IMG/VR virus record: IMGVR_UViG_3300021142_000021
Coordinates: 18,376-82,375 of that record
Reading direction: 5' to 3' (one strand)
DNA length: 64,000 bases
Source of the DNA: a virus
Shown here: piece after piece, positions 54,019 to 63,299 of the stretch
Numbering within the stretch: the stretch's first letter is position 1
How the letters are laid out: each line of letters begins with the position of its first letter
Notes under the pieces: model-generated
What the model was told of the DNA's origin: nothing
Database searches by the model: none
The model's input: only the letters and a program-made list of their open reading frames with translations
Made by a program: the position numbers and the translations under genes

Positions 54019-54243
54019 TTATAAACCGAATTTAAGTTTGAATGCTTTTGTATCTTCTTCGTGGCGAAATATAATTCCACCTGCGATATCAACTCCATAT
54101 GCACATATGGTATAGGTGTGATCAAACTGCCAGTTACCATCTGCTACATTATCGTGGCACCAGTCTTCAACAGTTCGGAAAAGCATATAGGATTCAACAA
54201 CGTCAATATTACCAATTACATTTTGTAACCTTATATTTGCCAT
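54019..54243 (-). CDS. Array member 16 (FKLKFGL-tail small protein)
   Basis: 74 residues, the most downstream member of the tandem array. It ends EDTKAFKLKFGL and has the family helix VEDWCHDNVADGNWQF with a following beta strand. AGAGGATTT is its ribosome site, and a GATAAATA motif stands upstream (54274-54267), so it may be expressed separately. The function is unknown. Confidence 0.72.
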   Translation of the reverse strand: MANIRLQNVIGNIDVVESYMLFRTVEDWCHDNVADGNWQFDHTYTICAYGVDIAGGIIFRHEEDTKAFKLKFGL

Positions 54244-54266
54244 TAAATCCTCTAGCTAATTGGCAG

Positions 54267-54274
54267 TATTTATC
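54267..54274 (-). promoter_or_regulatory. Late promoter motif GATAAATA inside the array
   Basis: Minus-strand GATAAATA in the 33-base gap between array members 15 and 16, 24 bases before the ATG at 54243. It is one of the few real gaps in the array. Confidence 0.6.
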
Positions 54275-54276
54275 TT

Positions 54277-54474
54277 CTATAAACCAAATTTAAGTCTAAA
54301 AGCTAACGCATCTTCTCTAGTTTCAAATCGTATTGTACCGGGATGGTGTGTACCAAATCCGTAGAGTTGCCAGTTAGATCTGCCAATAGTTCCATTTAGC
54401 CATCGTCGATATTCATTATTATGATCAAAGAATTTCCCATCGAAATTAAATTCTATAAAGTATTCTTCATCCAT
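54277..54474 (-). CDS. Array member 15
   Basis: 65 residues. YRRWLNGTIGRSNWQLYGFG gives the W-helix and aromatic strand, and the tail is REDALAFRLKFGL. The N-terminus MDEEYFIEFNF is more acidic than that of other members. It overlaps member 14 by eight bases. Confidence 0.72.
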   Translation of the reverse strand: MDEEYFIEFNFDGKFFDHNNEYRRWLNGTIGRSNWQLYGFGTHHPGTIRFETREDALAFRLKFGL

Positions 54475-54751
54475 TGAATTTTAACTTTATTATTAGCCAG
54501 AGTTCTTCATGTACATCGAACATATTAGTCACATAAAATTCTCTATCTATTTTTCCTAACTTATGTATATACCATTGCCTCTGATCTTGTGTCTGCAACC
54601 ACTCTGTTACATCTCTAGATACCAATATAGTATACCACATTACACCATCTACTTCAGCCTGAGCTTCTATTCTGTGGAAAGCATTAACGGACCCGTCGGT
54701 ACTAGCCCATGTCACTTCTATACCTTGTTCCTTAAACTTCACACCATCCAT
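54467..54751 (-). CDS. Array member 14 (degenerate tail)
   Basis: 94 residues from ATG 54751, which overlaps the upstream stop (TAATG); the frame itself is open to 54832. VTEWLQTQDQRQWYIHKLG is the W-helix. The tail HEELWLIIKLKFNG is a changed version of the family ending. Longer than most members because of an N-terminal beta extension. Confidence 0.65.
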   Translation of the reverse strand: MDGVKFKEQGIEVTWASTDGSVNAFHRIEAQAEVDGVMWYTILVSRDVTEWLQTQDQRQWYIHKLGKIDREFYVTNMFDVHEELWLIIKLKFNG

Positions 54752-54957
54752 TACATCCACCTTAATTTGAATATTACAGCATCTTCCTGTTCCAGGAATA
54801 CACCTGCTAAATGACCATTCACATGACCCCATTCGGGCTCTGTATTTTCTTTTAACCAGTCAATCATGCCATCGGGTGCCTTAAATTCACCATACTTACC
54901 ATGCGGAGGAAAAGCAACGTATATAACACCCTCTCCATATTCTCTAACTGACATCAT
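54751..54957 (-). CDS. Array member 13
   Basis: 68 residues. MIDWLKENTEPEWGHVNGHL is a typical helix-plus-W block, then EQEDAVIFKLRWM. This FKLRW ending is the form I recall from small proteins of other marine T4-like phages. Confidence 0.7.
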   Translation of the reverse strand: MMSVREYGEGVIYVAFPPHGKYGEFKAPDGMIDWLKENTEPEWGHVNGHLAGVFLEQEDAVIFKLRWM

Positions 54958-55229
54958 GGTAATGGTTTAGCCTGTAGTTTAATCCACATAAATTCTTCCA
55001 TGTCGCATTCGCCGAATGTCTCTTTTAAATCTTCCATTCGATTTTTATAATATCTAACTTCGTTATCTTCCTCACGCCATACTCTTTCCGCGAGTGTCAA
55101 TGCCGTGCTATTATATAGTAATCTCGTCTCGAAATGTTCGTTAGAGATGCTATGAACATCGCGCTGCACCCAATACCTGCCTCGTACACCATACCAAGAA
55201 CCATCTGCCTCGTAATAAAGATTTACCAT
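54954..55229 (-). CDS. Array member 12 (divergent)
   Basis: 91 residues. It keeps the position and ATGA coupling, but the tail is MEEFMWIKLQAKPLP and the middle is rich in Arg and Glu. N-terminal YYEADGSWYGVRGRYWVQRD is aromatic. Possibly a diverged or decaying member, or an unrelated gene inserted in the array. Confidence 0.6.
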   Translation of the reverse strand: MVNLYYEADGSWYGVRGRYWVQRDVHSISNEHFETRLLYNSTALTLAERVWREEDNEVRYYKNRMEDLKETFGECDMEEFMWIKLQAKPLP

Positions 55230-55230
55230 A

Positions 55231-55446
55231 TTATCTAAACATCAATTTAAAAACTAAAACATCTGCTTCATCTGCAAAGATTAGAAACTCAGTGTTTCCT
55301 ACTCTATCTACTGTTCTTGTTGCTCTAAAGTCTTCTGATAACCATAACCAAATAGAAGTAACAAAAAACCCATCTCTATTCTGAATATCGTTACCGTAGT
55401 AATAAGCTACCATATTCTTCCAGTAGGGATATGCGTATAGTTTCAT
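55231..55446 (-). CDS. Array member 11
   Basis: 71 residues. MKLYAYPYWKNMVAYYYG, SIWLWLSEDFRATRTVD and the tail EADVLVFKLMFR. Tyr-rich N-terminus. Separated by only one base from the next gene downstream. Confidence 0.68.
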   Translation of the reverse strand: MKLYAYPYWKNMVAYYYGNDIQNRDGFFVTSIWLWLSEDFRATRTVDRVGNTEFLIFADEADVLVFKLMFR

Positions 55447-55631
55447 AGTCCGCTCATTAATTTAAACGCTACTGCATCCATCTCGTCTTCGAATTGTATA
55501 GAAATTATACGACCCAGGTAACCGTGCTTACGTGGCTCACGCACTACAACACCTCCGTGAGTCTTAGCCCATACAAGTAAAGGATACCTAGGCTTGACTA
55601 CTTTAAAATAATTGTATTCTATGCTTATCAT
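55443..55631 (-). CDS. Array member 10
   Basis: 62 residues. The start MISIEYNYFKVVKP has a central LLVWAKTHGGVVVREPRKHG instead of the acidic helix, and it ends EDEMDAVAFKLMSGL. ATGA overlaps at both ends. Confidence 0.68.
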   Translation of the reverse strand: MISIEYNYFKVVKPRYPLLVWAKTHGGVVVREPRKHGYLGRIISIQFEDEMDAVAFKLMSGL

Positions 55632-55858
55632 AATCCATACTTCAATCTAAATGCTGTAGCATCCTCACGCCTGACAAATGTTACAGCAAATACAGCCTTA
55701 CCATAGTTATATTTCTTCATTCTAAATGCAGGGTTACCGCGCTTAGTTTTTGGTAATGCTGCCAACCAATGTGATTGTTCTATCAATACCTGCACATCAA
55801 GGTTGGCCACAGAGTCCATTATGTCGTTACCTTTTTTAAAGATGTAAATTGTTTTCAT
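55628..55858 (-). CDS. Array member 9
   Basis: 76 residues. VQVLIEQSHWLAALPKTKRG replaces the usual acidic W-helix with a neutral-basic one. The tail is RREDATAFRLKYGL. An internal ATG (MDSVANLD) could give a shorter form. Confidence 0.68.
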   Translation of the reverse strand: MKTIYIFKKGNDIMDSVANLDVQVLIEQSHWLAALPKTKRGNPAFRMKKYNYGKAVFAVTFVRREDATAFRLKYGL

Positions 55859-56067
55859 AAACCAAACTTTAATTTAAATACCAACAGGTCTTCTTCACTA
55901 TCTAATAATACCATGTGATAATAGGTCTTACCGTCTAGATAAGTTTTACCACCATTATAATCCCAGACTGCATTATCACACATATGTATCCATTCGTTAA
56001 TCACAGAATACTCTTTAATAGCCCATGGTCGATAAAGTCGTACGTGTATGCCTTCTTCTACTATCAT
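55855..56067 (-). CDS. Array member 8
   Basis: 70 residues. VINEWIHMCDNAVWDYNGGK is the W-helix and aromatic strand, and the tail SEEDLLVFKLKFGL is nearly the consensus. ATGA overlap at each end. Confidence 0.72.
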   Translation of the reverse strand: MIVEEGIHVRLYRPWAIKEYSVINEWIHMCDNAVWDYNGGKTYLDGKTYYHMVLLDSEEDLLVFKLKFGL

Positions 56068-56243
56068 AATCCAAACTTTAGTTTAAAAGCAATTGCGTCA
56101 TCTTCTCTTACAAAATACAGAGTTTGATCACCATGTAATTCGAATGTTACTTTATTCGGGGACTGTTTTATTAAGTCATCTAACCAATCGCATATTATAG
56201 AGTCAGGTATCTTATCATCCATTGGCCAATATACTTTTATCAT
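56064..56243 (-). CDS. Array member 7
   Basis: 59 residues (MIKVYWPMDDKIPDS at the start), ending REDDAIAFKLKFGL, an almost exact consensus. IICDWLDDLIKQSPN is the W-helix. Start and stop both lie in ATGA overlaps with the neighbours. Confidence 0.72.
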   Translation of the reverse strand: MIKVYWPMDDKIPDSIICDWLDDLIKQSPNKVTFELHGDQTLYFVREDDAIAFKLKFGL

Positions 56244-56413
56244 AATCCAAACTTTATCTTAAATGCAAGTGCATCTTCCTCGTAGAAGAACTCAATACTT
56301 TCTAGCATATTACTCCACCGCCAAACATTATTCTCAGTACCTAGTACTTCTTCCATCCACGCAATCATAGGAATAAAATCCATAAAGTTAACATTGCGTA
56401 TGTCTACAATCAT
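56240..56413 (-). CDS. Array member 6
   Basis: 57 residues (MIVDIRNVNFMDFI at the start), with IAWMEEVLGTENNVWRWSN and the tail YEEDALAFKIKFGL. The shortest member and thus a good guide to the minimal domain: strand, W-helix, strand, acidic turn, tail helix. Confidence 0.72.
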   Translation of the reverse strand: MIVDIRNVNFMDFIPMIAWMEEVLGTENNVWRWSNMLESIEFFYEEDALAFKIKFGL

Positions 56414-56619
56414 ATTCCAAACTTTAATCTAAGTATTACAGCTTGTTCAGAATCTATGGTTACTCCACATAGATATCCCGGCCTGGATTTAGAAACACCC
56501 CAGCTAGAATAATTTTGATTTTGTTCTTCTATATTTTCATGTATCCAGTCTTCTAACTCTTTATTCTTAAGACGTTGATCATTGTATCGCTCCATACCAG
56601 CAAAACTAATATAACTCAT
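56410..56619 (-). CDS. Array member 5
   Basis: 69 residues. MSYISFAGMERYNDQ, then LEDWIHENIEEQNQNYSSWG, and the tail DSEQAVILRLKFGI. The N-terminal strand and W-helix resemble member 2 (MTYINFRG, NWVVENIEEPDWDF), so the two are close relatives. Confidence 0.72.
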   Translation of the reverse strand: MSYISFAGMERYNDQRLKNKELEDWIHENIEEQNQNYSSWGVSKSRPGYLCGVTIDSEQAVILRLKFGI

Positions 56620-56792
56620 ATTCCTAGTTTTAACCTCATAATAATTGCATCCTCATCTGACATATCTATTCTATCAATAACAAAATCATCCTCACACATT
56701 GTATATGTGTATTGAATCTTATCATCGGCCAGCCATTGTAAAATTGTATTATACATAGGTAGTGGCAAACGTTTCATCTCAATGTACACCAT
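56616..56792 (-). CDS. Array member 4
   Basis: 58 residues (MVYIEMKRLPLPMYNT at the start), with ILQWLADDKIQYTYTM and the tail SDEDAIIMRLKLGI. It overlaps the end of member 3 by 14 bases. Confidence 0.7.
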   Translation of the reverse strand: MVYIEMKRLPLPMYNTILQWLADDKIQYTYTMCEDDFVIDRIDMSDEDAIIMRLKLGI

Positions 56793-56982
56793 CATACGCC
56801 CAATATTTAAGTTTAAAGGCTAATGCATCCTCCGAATTACCAAACGTAATAGTATCAGTAGCACTGCTCCAATGATAATCCTTTATATTGTTATCATCTA
56901 GCCAACCCTTCATTTCCTTATAGTATGCTATGTCCTGCCGTTGCTTAATATAAAAGCTATGTAAAGGATATATCATAATCAT
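56779..56982 (-). CDS. Array member 3
   Basis: 67 residues. MKGWLDDNNIKDYHWSSATD is the W-helix block. The family tail NSEDALAFKLKYWA runs on for a few residues (YDGVH) into the next gene, the only member with such an extension. Confidence 0.72.
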   Translation of the reverse strand: MIMIYPLHSFYIKQRQDIAYYKEMKGWLDDNNIKDYHWSSATDTITFGNSEDALAFKLKYWAYDGVH

Positions 56983-57176
56983 AATGCAAACTTTAATTTG
57001 ATTATGGTAGCATCTTCGTCGTTTAGTATAAGTCCAAGAAACATTCCATTTCTAAAATCCCAATCAGGTTCTTCTATATTTTCTACTACCCAATTATAGA
57101 CGTGTGACGGAATACCACCTATCCAGACTCCTGGTGCATTTAATTTTGGCAACCCTCTGAAGTTAATATATGTCAT
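56979..57176 (-). CDS. Array member 2
   Basis: 65 residues. MTYINFRGLPKLNAP, VYNWVVENIEEPDWDFRNG and tail NDEDATIIKLKFAL. Close to member 5. ATGA overlaps at both ends. Confidence 0.72.
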   Translation of the reverse strand: MTYINFRGLPKLNAPGVWIGGIPSHVYNWVVENIEEPDWDFRNGMFLGLILNDEDATIIKLKFAL

Positions 57177-57850: not shown

Positions 57851-57888
57851 TTTTGTAAAATTACACGACTGACTGGGATTTTACAAAA
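57851..57888. repeat. 11-bp perfect inverted repeat
   Basis: TTTTGTAAAAT (57851-57861) and ATTTTACAAAA (57878-57888) with a 16-base loop. It adjoins the tandem repeats that follow. AT-rich, possibly an unwinding or binding element. Confidence 0.65.
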
Positions 57889-57917
57889 CTTTACATAACT
57901 TTACATAACTTTACATT
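57888..57917 (+). repeat. Three tandem 10-bp iteron-like repeats
   Basis: ACTTTACATA, ACTTTACATA and ACTTTACATT follow without gaps, one per helical turn. The inverted repeat before them also contains TTTTACA. Iterons beside AT-rich DNA and hairpins are found at replication origins, so an origin or a regulator-binding site is plausible. Confidence 0.65.
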
Positions 57918-58005
57918 ACTGTGTCTCGCTTGCCACTGCACGCAACTAAATGTAAGTGCGAGGCAACGTGCTGCACGTTAGCACACGCTAACATACAGTC
58001 TCGCT

Positions 58006-58047
58006 GCTACTATGCACGCTACATGCATAGTAGCACGGGGGTGCTAC
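58006..58047. repeat. Two competing strong hairpins
   Basis: GCTACTATGCA (58006-58016) pairs with TGCATAGTAGC (58024-58034) over 11 bp. GTAGCAC (58030-58036) pairs with GTGCTAC (58041-58047) over 7 bp around GGGG. They share bases 58030-58034, so only one can form at a time, as in an attenuator. They lie just past the 3' end of the minus-strand gene at 58091, so they may also act in termination. Confidence 0.6.
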
Positions 58048-58090
58048 ATGTAACACATGTAACATAGCTTGCGCTATGCTACGTTATGTG

Positions 58091-58429
58091 TTAAGCAAAC
58101 AAGCGCAATACAATTGCGTTTTGCGTTTGCACAACACTAGCGTTATATTGCTTTGCAAGTAGCATTAAGTTGCTACATACTTGCGCGTTGTTAACTTTAA
58201 TGCTAACAAACTTAGCACGTAAGTTTGTGTACACGCGCTGCTTAAAGTACGTTGCTTGCACAGCACGCGCTAATGCTGCTACTGTAGCGTGCTGTGCTGC
58301 TGTGTACAGCGCAGCGTTTGCAGCGTTTTGTGCGCGTACTTGCAACAGCGTAATAAACGCGCTGTGCTTTACGTTTGTGTTAGCTTGTGTTTTAACAAGC
58401 TGCTGCTGTGCTTTTGTAAGTTTACGCAT
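58091..58429 (-). CDS. Glu/Asp/Gly/Pro/Trp-free basic protein in the GA/GG-depleted region
   Basis: 112 residues from ATG 58429: MRKLTKAQQQLVKTQ and onward, rich in Ala, Gln, Asn, Val and Lys/Arg. It has no acidic residue and no Gly, Pro or Trp. The DNA lacks GA, GG, TC and CC entirely over the whole gene. I chose ATG 58429 because its leader matches that of the other gene of this region (TATAAT, CACTG, CAATAATG, GTGCAGCA, AGTAAAG, CAATTATGC in order). Strongly basic and helical, so nucleic-acid binding is a guess. TGA cannot occur here, which lengthens chance frames, so coding is likely but unproven. Confidence 0.55.
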   Translation of the reverse strand: MRKLTKAQQQLVKTQANTNVKHSAFITLLQVRAQNAANAALYTAAQHATVAALARAVQATYFKQRVYTNLRAKFVSIKVNNAQVCSNLMLLAKQYNASVVQTQNAIVLRLFA

Positions 58430-58846
58430 AATTGCTTTACTTTGTTTGTGCTGCACATTATTGTACAGTGCTTGTATTATAACGCTTTTTTGTGCTGCTG
58501 TGTGCTACTTTACAAACTGTTACACTTTAGCATTTCATGCTGCATTGCTCAAGTTGCACAGCGAGGGGTTAATGTTTTATGCGCTGCACACTGCCTCGCA
58601 ATTATTTTAAGCTTGCTGAAAATTTTTAACGAGAGCTGTGCTATAATATGTTTAACGCGCAATGTATAACTGTAACTATACTTTTTGGGCCTCGCTTAGC
58701 AAATAGCAATAATGCAGCATGAACTTGTTAGATGTAACAGTTTGTAAGTTGCAAAAATACAACACACAAAACATAAAAAGTGCGCTATAATAATAACACT
58801 GCACAGCAATAATGCTAAGTGCAGCAACTTAGTAAAGTAAACAATT
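58430..58846. other. Divergent promoter region between the two unusual genes
   Basis: It holds a minus-strand TATAAT (58481-58476) for the gene at 58429, and plus-strand TATAAT boxes at 58642-58647 and 58786-58791, the latter 55 bases before ATG 58847. The -35 boxes are weak. The dinucleotides GA, GG, TC and CC are concentrated in blocks such as GCGAGGGG (58561), CCTCGC, CGAGAG and GGGCCTCGC; outside them they are almost absent. TGCTGCATTGCTCAAGT (58538-58554) recurs at 59514. Confidence 0.6.
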
Positions 58847-59440
58847 ATGCTTACATTAGCTTACGCGCAAGCTGCAATTGCAGCGCACAAAAACAACAAA
58901 GTAAATGCTACGCGCATTAGTGCTTTGTTGCAACAATACAACAACACAGCTACAATCGCAAACGTAACGCAAGTTACGCAAGTGCAATGCAGCGCGGCAA
59001 ACAAAAATGTTGTTATACAAAAAGTAACACGCGCAAGTGTGTTGCTGTTTGCTAACGCATTAAATTATGTTGCTTGCGTACAACGCAGCGCAGCTAAAAT
59101 TGCAGACAACGACGCTGCTGCAATCGCGCAATTTACAGCAAGCGCAGCAAGCTTTACGCACGATGCTAACTGCTACAGCATTGTTACAAACAACAATAGC
59201 GCACAGCAATATTTGTATTTGCACTACAACAACGCGCAAAGTGTGTATGTTTTAAACAACACAATTATTAGTGCTGCAACTGCTGCAAGCTTTTGCAGTG
59301 CAAGCGTAGCAAAAGCAATGTTGCAAACAAGCAACACTACGCACAATGTTAGCAATAACGTAACGCATAGCATTTGTGTACGCACTGTAAAGTTGCAAAA
59401 CATTGTGCGTTTAGCTGCGCTAAAGCAAGTGTTGCAGTAA
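58847..59440 (+). CDS. 197-residue protein lacking Glu, Gly, Pro and Trp
   Basis: MLTLAYAQAAIAAHKNNK and onward, very rich in Ala, Asn, Thr, Val and Gln. It has three Asp, and no Glu, Gly, Pro or Trp. The DNA has only about six of the dinucleotides GA, GG, TC and CC in 594 bases. No Shine-Dalgarno sequence is possible without GG or GA; the leader AGTAAAG plus CAATTATGC is shared with the divergent gene. A Rho-independent terminator follows 30 bases after the stop, which supports real expression. Mostly helical. The function is unknown. Confidence 0.62.
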   Translation: MLTLAYAQAAIAAHKNNKVNATRISALLQQYNNTATIANVTQVTQVQCSAANKNVVIQKVTRASVLLFANALNYVACVQRSAAKIADNDAAAIAQFTASAASFTHDANCYSIVTNNNSAQQYLYLHYNNAQSVYVLNNTIISAATAASFCSASVAKAMLQTSNTTHNVSNNVTHSICVRTVKLQNIVRLAALKQVLQ

Positions 59441-59469
59441 AACAACAAGTAGCGCAAGCTACTTAACGC

Positions 59470-59497
59470 AAAGCGCACTATTTTAGTGCGCTTTTTT
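59470..59497 (+). terminator. Rho-independent terminator
   Basis: AAAGCGCACTA (59470-59480) pairs perfectly with TAGTGCGCTTT (59484-59494) over 11 bp, followed by more T. It lies 30 bases after the stop of the plus-strand gene. Confidence 0.85.
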
Positions 59498-59513
59498 ATG
59501 CGCGTTATAATCG

Positions 59514-59530
59514 TGCTGCATTGCTCAAGT
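59514..59530 (+). repeat. Second copy of TGCTGCATTGCTCAAGT
   Basis: An exact 17-base match to 58538-58554. Both copies are followed within a few bases by TGCA and then CGAGGGG, so the shared unit is longer with mismatches. The copies flank the plus-strand gene. Confidence 0.65.
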
Positions 59531-59561
59531 CCTGCAACGAGGGGAAGTGCTGCTGTGTCGT

Positions 59562-59718
59562 GCTACTGTTTTTAAAGACGTACATGCGTGCAAAGCGAGG
59601 GCAACACATTGTTACATCTTGCTTTTAGGCTAAGCTTAGTCTACATCCTTTAAGCAAGATGTAACACACACGCGCATCTCGCTATTGTTTTTAAAGACGT
59701 ACATGCGTGCAAAGCGAG
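59562..59718 (+). repeat. 38-bp direct repeats flanking a 14-bp-stem cruciform
   Basis: Positions 59562-59599 and 59681-59718 are identical but for one base (GCTAC or GCTAT at the start, GTGCAAAGCGAG at the end). Between them GTTACATCTTGCTT (59611-59624) pairs perfectly with AAGCAAGATGTAAC (59652-59665), and the loop holds the palindrome CTAAGCTTAG. No gene is visible from 59441 to 60060. The stretch could encode a structured RNA or be a replication or partition site. Confidence 0.7.
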
Positions 59719-59856
59719 AGGGGCACAATATTGCTAACCTATCTACCATTTTGCTGTGTCCGTGCTGCAGGTTTTTTAGGTATTAAAAACCTAATACGAG
59801 AGGGTGCTTTGACATTTATAAGCAACTGTAGTAAACAGCGTTTAAAAGCAATACTG

Positions 59857-59943
59857 CTACTCTGCTATTAACTTTTGTTTTAGTGCTGCTGTAGCGCGTT
59901 TTAAGCTGCTTGCTGCACGTTGTAAACTAGCTGTGTAAAGCAA
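59857..59943 (-). CDS. Possible 28-residue peptide
   Basis: TTG-started minus-strand frame ending in SSLKRATAALKQKLIAE. The DNA is again almost free of GA, GG, TC and CC, and the composition is like that of the protein at 58429. It may be a remnant of a third gene of this type. Weak evidence. Confidence 0.2.
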   Translation of the reverse strand: MLYTASLQRAASSLKRATAALKQKLIAE

Positions 59944-59962
59944 GCACGCAACACAAAGGTGT

Positions 59963-60006
59963 GTCTCGCACTAGGTTTTTAAGGATAAAAAATCCTGCAG
60001 CGAGAC
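59963..60006. repeat. Two-tier hairpin with GTCTCGC/GCGAGAC base
   Basis: GTCTCGC (59963-59969) pairs with GCGAGAC (60000-60006), enclosing an inner stem AGGTTTTT/AAAAATCCT with one bulge. The CTCGC...GCGAG base pair set recurs around other hairpins in 57.9-60.0 kb. Confidence 0.55.
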
Positions 60007-60016
60007 TATGCGGCCA

Positions 60017-60041
60017 CAATAAAAGGGACCTAAGTCCCTTT
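60017..60041 (-). terminator. Rho-independent terminator of the minus-strand small-gene unit
   Basis: On the minus strand AAAGGGAC, loop TTAG, GTCCCTTT, then TTATTG. The 8-bp stem (60041-60034 with 60029-60022) with a T-rich end lies just after the stop of the gene at 60061. Confidence 0.78.
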
Positions 60042-60060
60042 GTGTGTCGCCCAGTAAGGG

Positions 60061-60309
60061 CTAGTCGTTTATAATCAGCGCCGTGCAGTAAGCGAGCGCA
60101 CTGTTTAAGCTGACACTGTTCATTGTGGGCTTGTAACGCCAGCCCATTGTGTCCTCACCGCTTGCGTCTTTGTCAGCGCCTGTAAACATAAACGCATAGC
60201 CGTCTATGCTGATGTATTGCCCCGGGGAGCCAATCTGCAGGTCGCTTGCCTCTGCGACGTAGGTTTTGCTGATGGGATTGTAATCAAACTGTTCTGATTT
60301 GAAGTTCAT
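60061..60309 (-). CDS. Hypothetical small early protein
   Basis: 82 residues from ATG 60309, preceded by AAGGAGCAGCAG; the frame is open to 60345. Soluble, with QYISIDGYAFMFTGADKDASGED in the middle. No motif recognised. Its ribosome site overlaps the stop of the gene upstream (CTCTAAGGAG), so translation is coupled. Confidence 0.7.
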   Translation of the reverse strand: MNFKSEQFDYNPISKTYVAEASDLQIGSPGQYISIDGYAFMFTGADKDASGEDTMGWRYKPTMNSVSLNSALAYCTALIIND

Positions 60310-60319
60310 CTGCTGCTCC

Positions 60320-60421
60320 TTAGAGGAATGTGTAAAGGATGACAATCGCCATTACAACCAATACAATAAGCACAGGTTGTAAGTCCCTTACACCTATTAG
60401 GTCTTGTAGAAAGCGTTTCAT
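60320..60421 (-). CDS. 33-residue single-span membrane peptide
   Basis: MKRFLQDLIGVRDLQP then a helix VLIVLVVMAIVILYTFL up to the stop. AAGGAGCAGC stands directly before ATG 60421, and a perfect sigma70 promoter lies 25 bases further. Such tiny phage membrane peptides often regulate host envelope proteins or lysis. The function is unknown. Confidence 0.7.
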   Translation of the reverse strand: MKRFLQDLIGVRDLQPVLIVLVVMAIVILYTFL

Positions 60422-60445: not shown

Positions 60446-60474
60446 ATTATAGCGCAGTAGGAGCAGGTTGTCAA
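60446..60474 (-). promoter_or_regulatory. Perfect sigma70 promoter
   Basis: Minus strand TTGACA (60474-60469), 17 bases, TATAAT (60451-60446): 12 of 12 consensus bases. The leader ACATCGCAACAAGGAG is shared with the promoter at 61245. It drives the membrane peptide and the gene at 60309. Confidence 0.9.
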
Positions 60475-60939: not shown

Positions 60940-60967
60940 ATTATAGCACAGAAAACAGTGCTGTCAA
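60940..60967 (-). promoter_or_regulatory. Consensus sigma70 promoter
   Basis: Minus strand TTGACA (60967-60962), 16 bases, TATAAT (60945-60940). The leader shares GCAACAAGGAG with the neighbouring promoters. It overlaps the 3' region of the gene upstream by almost nothing, so each unit has its own promoter. Confidence 0.85.
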
Positions 60968-61244: not shown

Positions 61245-61273
61245 ATTATAGCGCAAAGGAACTGTGCTGTCAA
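61245..61273 (-). promoter_or_regulatory. Perfect sigma70 promoter
   Basis: Minus strand TTGACA (61273-61268), 17 bases, TATAAT (61250-61245). The leader CACATCGCAACAAGGAG is nearly identical to that of the promoter at 60446. It overlaps the end of the GIY-YIG gene. Confidence 0.9.
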
Positions 61274-61905
61274 CAACTATTTTTCGCCTCGGTACCGATG
61301 CACGCAACTACTTTTGTCTGCAGAGACTTGCGTTTATTGCGTTCACGCTGTTGTGCATTTCTACGTAATCTTATTTCATCGGGTGTTAAATTTAACTTAT
61401 TATGTGGTACTCTGCCCATCTTAGCGCGGGATTCTGCTGTATGTTTTTTACCGAACATATGATTATTCGAGCCCTGTAGTGCTACACTAATTTTAGCATT
61501 ACGCGCTGGATTAGTCCATACTTCTTGCATTGATGCTGTATAACGTTCCATAGTCTCGGGTTTAGCATAGGCAGAACGATTGCTTATGCTCGAGGCTTGT
61601 TTTGCGGCATCTGTGTGTATGTAGCCACTGCTTCCATCTCCTCCATCGGATTTGTTACGAAGTATGCCAGTCCCATTGTCCTTTCTTCCATACCAGCGTA
61701 TAATACGACGCTCAATAGCGAACGCACCTAACTCAGTAAGGTTAGCCTCAAGAATTACTATGAGAGCTCTATTAGTTGGAGGCGAGACTATGTGTTGTTT
61801 GCTCTTAGAGCGTTTTCCCTTACCTTTGCCTATATAGTAAGGTGTCCCATCCTCGCGTAAGTAAGCGTAGACATAGAACGCAAGGGACGAGACTATTTTA
61901 TACAT
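61270..61905 (-). CDS. GIY-YIG homing endonuclease, copy 1
   Basis: 211 residues. [19 protein letters not shown] (~10-28) is the YVY/YIG core. Then [19 protein letters not shown] (~58-76) supplies the catalytic-type Arg and Glu, and [17 protein letters not shown] is conserved. NUMOD-like HTAESRAKM and the basic C-terminus bind DNA. It is clearly paralogous to the gene at 62637 in the opposite orientation. The ATG at 61905 has GATAAATA four bases upstream and no good ribosome site. Confidence 0.85.
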
Positions 61906-62621: not shown

Positions 62622-62623
62622 TT

Positions 62624-62631
62624 GATAAATA
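62624..62631 (+). promoter_or_regulatory. GATAAATA motif before GIY-YIG copy 2
   Basis: GATAAATA, then AGAGC and ATG 62637. It lies just after the stop of the HTH-like gene and is the third endonuclease gene with this arrangement. Confidence 0.5.
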
Positions 62632-62636
62632 AGAGC

Positions 62637-63299
62637 ATGAGCTCTTATTACGTTTACGCTTACCTTAGGACAGGAAACCTAACACCTTATTACATAGGTA
62701 AAGGTAAGCGCGAACGTGCCTTCATAAAACACGGTAGAATTACCGTACCAAAAGATAAATCTCGTATCGTGTTCTTAGAATGTAACCTATCAGAGATAGG
62801 TGCATTCGCTATAGAACGACGTATGATTAAATGGTATGGTAGAAAAGATAATGGAACAGGTATTCTTAGGAACATAACCGATGGTGGAGACGGGTGTTCG
62901 GGTCGTATCTATAGACACACAGCAGAAACTAAAGCTAAGATTAGTGCTGCTCAGGTAGGAATGCTGCGCGGACCTCATACAGAAGAGACAAAGTCAAAAC
63001 TCAAGGCAGCGAGGGCACTTAGACCTCCCGCCTCGGATGAGACTCGCAGGCGTATGAGTGAATCTCTCCGAGGAGAAAAGAATCCCAACTTTGGAAAAAC
63101 TGCTACAGCTGAACAGCTAGAAGCTGCCAGTGCATTACGTCGTAATATACCTAGATCGCCTACTGCCTGTGCTAAACATAGCGCCACAATAAAAGGCATA
63201 CCAAAACCTAAACTCACTTGCCCTCACTGCGGGCTCACTGGCGGCACCCCGCAAATGAAGAGATATCATTTTGATAACTGCAAACAAAAACCTATGTAG
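62637..63299 (+). CDS. GIY-YIG homing endonuclease, copy 2
   Basis: 220 residues. [20 protein letters not shown] (~4-23) is the catalytic start. [19 protein letters not shown] (~52-70) and [13 protein letters not shown] match copy 1 closely. NUMOD3 repeats follow ([38 protein letters not shown]), and a C-terminal C-x2-C ... H-x4-C set ([14 protein letters not shown]) suggests a zinc finger. The base composition is AT-rich like the left half, unlike the HTH-like gene next to it, which fits mobility. Confidence 0.88.

Follow-up and report, generated by a model that had tools for sequence, protein, structure and literature searches.

Background

The question raised by this locus is why a phage should write two genes, together with their promoters and 3' ends, almost without the dinucleotides GA, GG, TC and CC. 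The locus lies in a stretch of 64,000 bases (hereafter the window), which comprises bases 18,376-82,375 of an 82,375-bp IMG/VR virus contig (G000). A first-pass annotation of this DNA had drawn attention to positions 58,041-59,511 and had offered two explanations, the mutational footprint of a cytosine deaminase or strong selection against a short motif. In this study, we report the extent and anatomy of the depletion, its occurrence in related phages, and an evaluation of its possible causes. The banned steps are restated throughout as G before a purine (GR) and C after a pyrimidine (YC).

Results and discussion

Extent of the dinucleotide depletion

Recounting against base composition upheld the three tracts previously described as free of all four dinucleotides, with 0 steps observed against about 103 expected at 58,041-58,535, 0 against 39 at 58,733-58,956, and 0 against 69 at 59,163-59,511. 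Over the whole 1,471 bases (58,041-59,511) the total is 23, where about 22 had been counted before, and the expectation is 300, lower than the roughly 360 given earlier. At a background of 0.19 per step, the chance of the 495-base clean run is about 1e-45. Positions 1-58,040 of the window contain 10,952 such steps, close to the 10,575 expected, so the depletion is local; elsewhere on the contig, outside 57.8-64 kb, the longest clean runs are of 40 bases or fewer. The onset is at about 57.88 kb, and the depletion tapers toward 60.0 kb, from where observed/expected ratios of about 0.65-0.9 continue as far as the contig end. Within the clean zone the ban is purely dinucleotide, extra constraint on 3- or 4-mers not being prominent. 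The dinucleotide CA is enriched, and GC is 2.9 times enriched, the latter being an expected by-product of the ban.

Anatomy of the two units

The clean DNA consists of two divergent small-gene transcription units, P121 on the minus strand and P197 on the plus strand, each starting roughly 50 bp before a TATAAT box and running beyond the end of its gene. The features are as follows (counts are forbidden steps, observed/expected).

57,878-58,041, no strand: left border, partly depleted and hairpin-like, with breaks of the rule at TCTCGC/GCGAG motifs; matched for the most part by G001 at about 90.44-90.52 kb
58,042-58,534, minus: GR/YC-free unit 1 (promoter, leader, P121 gene and 3' end), 0/102
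58,091-58,429, minus: P121 coding sequence, 112 aa from ATG (listed open reading frame 121 aa from GTG), no D, E, G, P or W
58,476-58,481, minus: TATAAT box of unit 1, read from the sequence
58,535-58,732, no strand: gap between the divergent units, retaining GAGGGG, CCTC, GGGCCTC and similar, 17/38.7
58,733-58,846, plus: promoter and leader of unit 2, 0/17
58,786-58,791, plus: TATAAT box of unit 2, its flanks conserved in G001 and G018
58,847-59,440, plus: P197 coding sequence, 197 aa with no E, G, P or W, 3 D and a net charge of about +10; homologues in six other contigs
59,470-59,497, plus: intrinsic terminator AAAGCGCACTATTTTAGTGCGCTTTTTT, without any of the four dinucleotides; fold of 59,455-59,505 -18.0 kcal/mol
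59,512-60,048, no strand: right border, partly depleted, with TCTCGC...GCGAGA repeats; observed/expected about 0.47 in 59,501-60,000

The two promoters are related to each other, each with its TATAAT box upstream of its gene, and both start codons lie within CAATTATGC. The P197 gene has 6 forbidden steps where 125 are expected, and its 3' end with the terminator has none (14 expected). With counts near zero in the units, against 17/39 in the gap and 32/57 downstream, the ban spans promoter to terminator and spares the spacer; the residual violations are concentrated in the gap and outside the units. The spacers are therefore not clean throughout, a point missed by the earlier statement that the rule holds in genes of both orientations and in spacers. 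The gap is flanked by arms (58,486-58,546 and 58,711-58,771) that form a 72% inverted repeat.

Several other features of the neighbourhood were recorded. Pairs of TCTCGC and GCGAGA, about 30-40 bases apart, are repeated around the clean units (57,924-60,005), and the stretch 57,957-58,040 is largely common to G001 near 90.44-90.52 kb. On the minus strand, 54,019-57,176 holds a tandem array of about a dozen small open reading frames (57-91 aa) with a C-terminal (E/D)DA-x-x-FKLKFGL motif, and small open reading frames related to this cluster adjoin the clean zone in contigs G010 and G018 as well. Two related homing-endonuclease-like genes (PHROG 314/15526) lie near the zone, at 61,270-61,905 (minus) and 62,622-63,299 (plus). 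Further away (21,770-49,477), genes resembling, by eye, glycosyltransferases, radical SAM enzymes, a carbamoyltransferase, a nucleotidyltransferase and an aminotransferase are found downstream of the tail genes.

The encoded proteins

The price of the ban is that the unit proteins have lost almost every Asp, Glu, Gly, Pro and Trp. Among the P197-family homologues the third codon position is the most variable, which indicates proteins under purifying selection. Family searches placed neither P197 nor P121 in a PHROG at E<=0.001, and no member of the P197 family was found in bacterial genomes. The predicted fold of P197 (pLDDT 73.6, pTM 0.72) had no PDB match at E<=0.001 and matched three uncharacterised phage proteins (E 1e-5 to 2e-4). 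A DNA search of phages returned no match.

Relatives and phage placement

The contig belongs to a freshwater jumbo phage that is a relative of Pseudomonas phage PA5oct. The best matches of its SbcC-like protein are 11 PA5oct-like records at 54% identity, and this core-gene homology places it among the PA5oct-like jumbo phages (Arenbergviridae), formal rank being left aside. The wider environmental jumbo-phage group comprises 55 loci.

Homologues of P197 were found in six other contigs from several metagenomes. Gene calls in the relatives are mechanical picks of open reading frames, and promoters that are homologous do not count as independent. The rule is kept strictly in G004 (46-47% identity; clean runs of 703 and 471 bases) and G010 (a 346-base clean run), and partially in G018, where the gene has 18 forbidden steps against 138 expected; in G005, G019 and G020 the homologues lie in ordinary DNA and contain Glu, Asp, Gly and Pro. 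Normal homologues without directional substitutions had been named as a finding that would refute the observation. Such homologues exist in three contigs, but with the rule kept by others the trait is real and specific to certain lineages. G018 and G001 show intermediate states of avoidance, and no clean tract longer than 53 bases was found in G005-G007 (363-385 kb).

The same alternation of units and gaps recurs in G004, with 0/126, 0/69, 0/8 and 1/15 forbidden steps in the units against 14/30 and 26/43 in the gaps. In three of its units the clean tracts start directly after a common upstream block, GTGAACTTAAAGTG; this conserved block, about 50 bp before the TATAAT box, marks their start. 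A search of viral contigs with the promoter block added L199 and L201 only, both chance matches without tracts. Among the other contigs a homologue of P121 was found in G004 alone (45% identity), where it is also GR/YC-free and on the same strand as the P197 homologue. A third gene, common to G004 and G018 (65% identity), is clean over its promoter and about the first 30 codons and less so over the remainder. Weaker avoidance of GR and YC, again two-sided, was seen in early-like genes close by in G001, G004 and G018, and across the whole genome in PA5oct, G003, G008 and G004.

Two side observations concern these contigs. A pilus-secretin-like (PilQ-like) gene of host type, recognised by eye, lies at a contig end (G004:120,890-122,893) and may reflect a chimera or a captured gene. 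The early-like regions G005:248-264 kb and G001:92-108 kb have a third-position G+C of about 0.5-0.55, against genome averages of 0.2-0.3, and this rise matches the compositional shift at the right end of the window.

Mutation, selection or artefact

We conclude that the exclusion is very probably due to selection and not to mutation. The deaminase explanation would have C turned to T at YC on both strands; DddA-like and APOBEC-like enzymes do prefer YC, and the clean state would match saturation. However, where ordinary homologues have Glu (n=59), the strict genes have Ala (18), Gln (12) or Val (9) and in no case Lys, and none of 24 Pro residues is replaced by Leu. When G005 was compared with G004 and the window, the 5' base being kept, YC had become YT in about 30% of cases, against an undirected expectation of about one third. 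Nor is there an excess of T at four-fold sites between pyrimidines (6%), and the clean zone has a G+C of 41%, where C-to-T conversion predicts a far lower value. The excess of C-to-T at YC and of G-to-A at GR, for which an alignment of homologues had been proposed as the check, was thus not seen, and a deaminase footprint is very improbable. Codon choice, once the banned options are removed, broadly resembles that of the normal early region of G005. The substitutions and the DNA-level avoidance support the other explanation of the first-pass annotation, selection against a short motif. Misassembly or a contaminating replicon, which had also been raised, is scarcely credible: the clean zone does lie near a contig end in the window contig, G004 and G010, but in G018 it is internal, amid the same small-paralogue cluster and a homologue of the window gene at 60,061-60,345, and the homologues come from several metagenomes. 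The same genes recur there with the same neighbours, and this conserved synteny refutes an assembly artefact.

Level of action

As had been proposed, the rule acts on DNA and not on protein, given that third codon positions, promoters, leaders and the terminator obey it and the proteins yield. At synonymous choices in the strict genes, NYC is used in 0-9% of cases against 55-80% for NRC, and NNG in 0-2% before a purine against 57-70% before a pyrimidine. The avoidance is strand-symmetric and on double-stranded DNA. From a cause acting purely on RNA one would expect avoidance on one side only, stopping short of the upstream promoter DNA. An RNA-only cause was therefore rejected, as the promoter DNA is likewise clean and GR has gone from the sense strand as well. 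A general promoter rule finds no support either, as TATAAT sites elsewhere in these genomes show no depletion.

The Rho-based variant of an RNA-level cause would have YC-free transcripts escape termination. Its attraction is that YC in RNA is exactly the contact proposed for the Rho primary site (PMC9160355), and some neighbouring genes keep sense GR and are nearly without sense YC. An anti-Rho pattern would avoid sense YC and spare GR; the strict genes instead avoid sense GR equally at synonymous sites, although it should be neutral or useful against Rho, and the upstream promoter DNA is clean as well, which leaves this explanation quite unlikely. Evasion of a DNA attack, in which first-injected protective genes avoid a YC/GR-type CRISPR PAM or the sites of a nuclease of short specificity, agrees with avoidance that is local, strand-symmetric and at the DNA level. 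A precedent is phage T5, whose first-transferred DNA is without EcoRI sites. Avoidance of restriction sites does occur in phages (PMC8594841). The gap at 58,535-58,732 nevertheless keeps 17 sites, although a cut there would be equally harmful, and the genes have given up Glu, Gly and Pro; we regard such evasion as unlikely. Since cutting at a PAM or nuclease site leaves the retained sites of the gap unexplained, the pattern agrees better with something that matters only where RNA polymerase sits and moves.

A mark in GR/YC context as the candidate agent

The reading that we prefer, with a rough probability of 0.4, is that early units are kept free of sites for a GR/YC mark, or for a factor that reads GR/YC, either of which would impair host RNA polymerase. 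The units are probably immediate-early and read by the host enzyme from incoming DNA, the early label being drawn from the kind of promoter, the high third-position G+C and the setting among small genes. The agent may be a base mark in GR/YC context or an equivalent sequence-reading factor. If a mark, it could be the phage's own hypermodification (a modified G such as 7-deazaguanine) or be imposed by the host; it would hinder promoter recognition and early elongation, so that the genes needed first would be written mark-free while the rest of the genome could wait. A bolder proposal, in which first-expressed genes use a restricted code without GR/YC-mark sites, an unmodified host RNA polymerase reads an otherwise marked genome, and the mark is new or newly placed, is doubtful at present.

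Deazaguanine as the agent deserves clearly less credence than the preferred reading as a whole. The DpdA of phage CAjan modifies GA and GGC (cited in PMC8306585). A block of sigma factors by 7-deazaguanine has been proposed (PMC6884629), and PA5oct is listed in a review as having a deazaguanine system (PMC7824862). PA5oct carries FolE and two PTPS genes, but these adjoin thymidylate synthase and may serve folate instead. PTPS also occurs in G005-G007, though those genomes have no tract, and the window contig, itself partial, has no FolE/QueD-type gene. Searches with PF01702, NF041059 and CAjan DpdA found no transglycosylase DpdA in PA5oct or in the contigs, of which the strict ones are partial and may carry such genes elsewhere, and QueC (PF06508) gave a single marginal partial match, in G005. 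In the 50 kb of CAjan that were scanned the longest run is 48, so no unit there is free of GR/YC. Taken together, the failure to find DpdA, the folate-like context of FolE/PTPS, CAjan without a tract, and a mark and timing that are predicted lead us to put the full model at the value given above. A further point against a mark is that near-consensus TTGACA promoters with GA in them serve neighbouring genes of the window.

Two such TTGACA/TATAAT promoters were located on the minus strand at 60,446-60,474 and 60,940-60,967 (spacers of 17 and 16 bases), and their genes break the rule. Adenine marking of the Mom type, whose target context includes CA, was considered as the sole cause and rejected, CA being enriched and not avoided.

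Whatever its nature, the agent suggested by the ban reads DNA at the two-base level and acts very strongly on early transcription of the phage. Should the agent be a mark, the locus would be relevant to the question of how an unmodified host polymerase first reads a phage genome that is heavily modified.

Comparison with known systems

Restriction-site avoidance in phages (PMC8594841) is alike in that selection strips a short DNA motif read by an agent. Known sites are typically of 4-6 bp, are avoided genome-wide and leave proteins unreshaped, whereas here the banned units are dinucleotides, the avoidance is near absolute and unit-confined, and GCGC and AAGCTT persist in the zone. Hypermutation by APOBEC or DddA, and RIP in fungi, share a context-dependent loss of C on both strands, but the C-to-T direction is absent here and RIP targets CA, which is enriched. 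With 7-deazaguanine marking by CAjan DpdA there is an overlap between its GA and GG(C) context (PMC8306585) and the banned set, and a sigma-factor block has been proposed (PMC6884629); unlike the present case, CAjan lacks a GR/YC-free unit, and here DpdA was not found and GGT and GGG are banned too.

The first-pass annotation knew of no described phage region of this type, and as far as our literature search reached this holds. To our knowledge, no other genome region has a dinucleotide ban that is near absolute, strand-symmetric and confined to transcription units, and that strips several amino acids from conserved proteins.

The closest comparison is with PA5oct itself (Arenbergviridae, Wroclawvirus), in which no homologue of P197 was found. 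Its SbcC is 54% identical and it carries several GR/YC-free tracts, the longest of 217, 149, 143 and 141 bases (expected numbers 3e-12 to 1.5e-6), which differ from the present units in being shorter and mostly intergenic or parts of genes. The 217-bp tract contains a tandem TTGCAA-N17-TATAAT promoter before a tRNA cluster, and is kept in five other isolates with one substitution that makes a GA near the 3' edge. Shorter tracts of this kind are present in culturable phages, namely PA5oct, Paride, MIJ3 and Callisto, which makes their cause directly testable.
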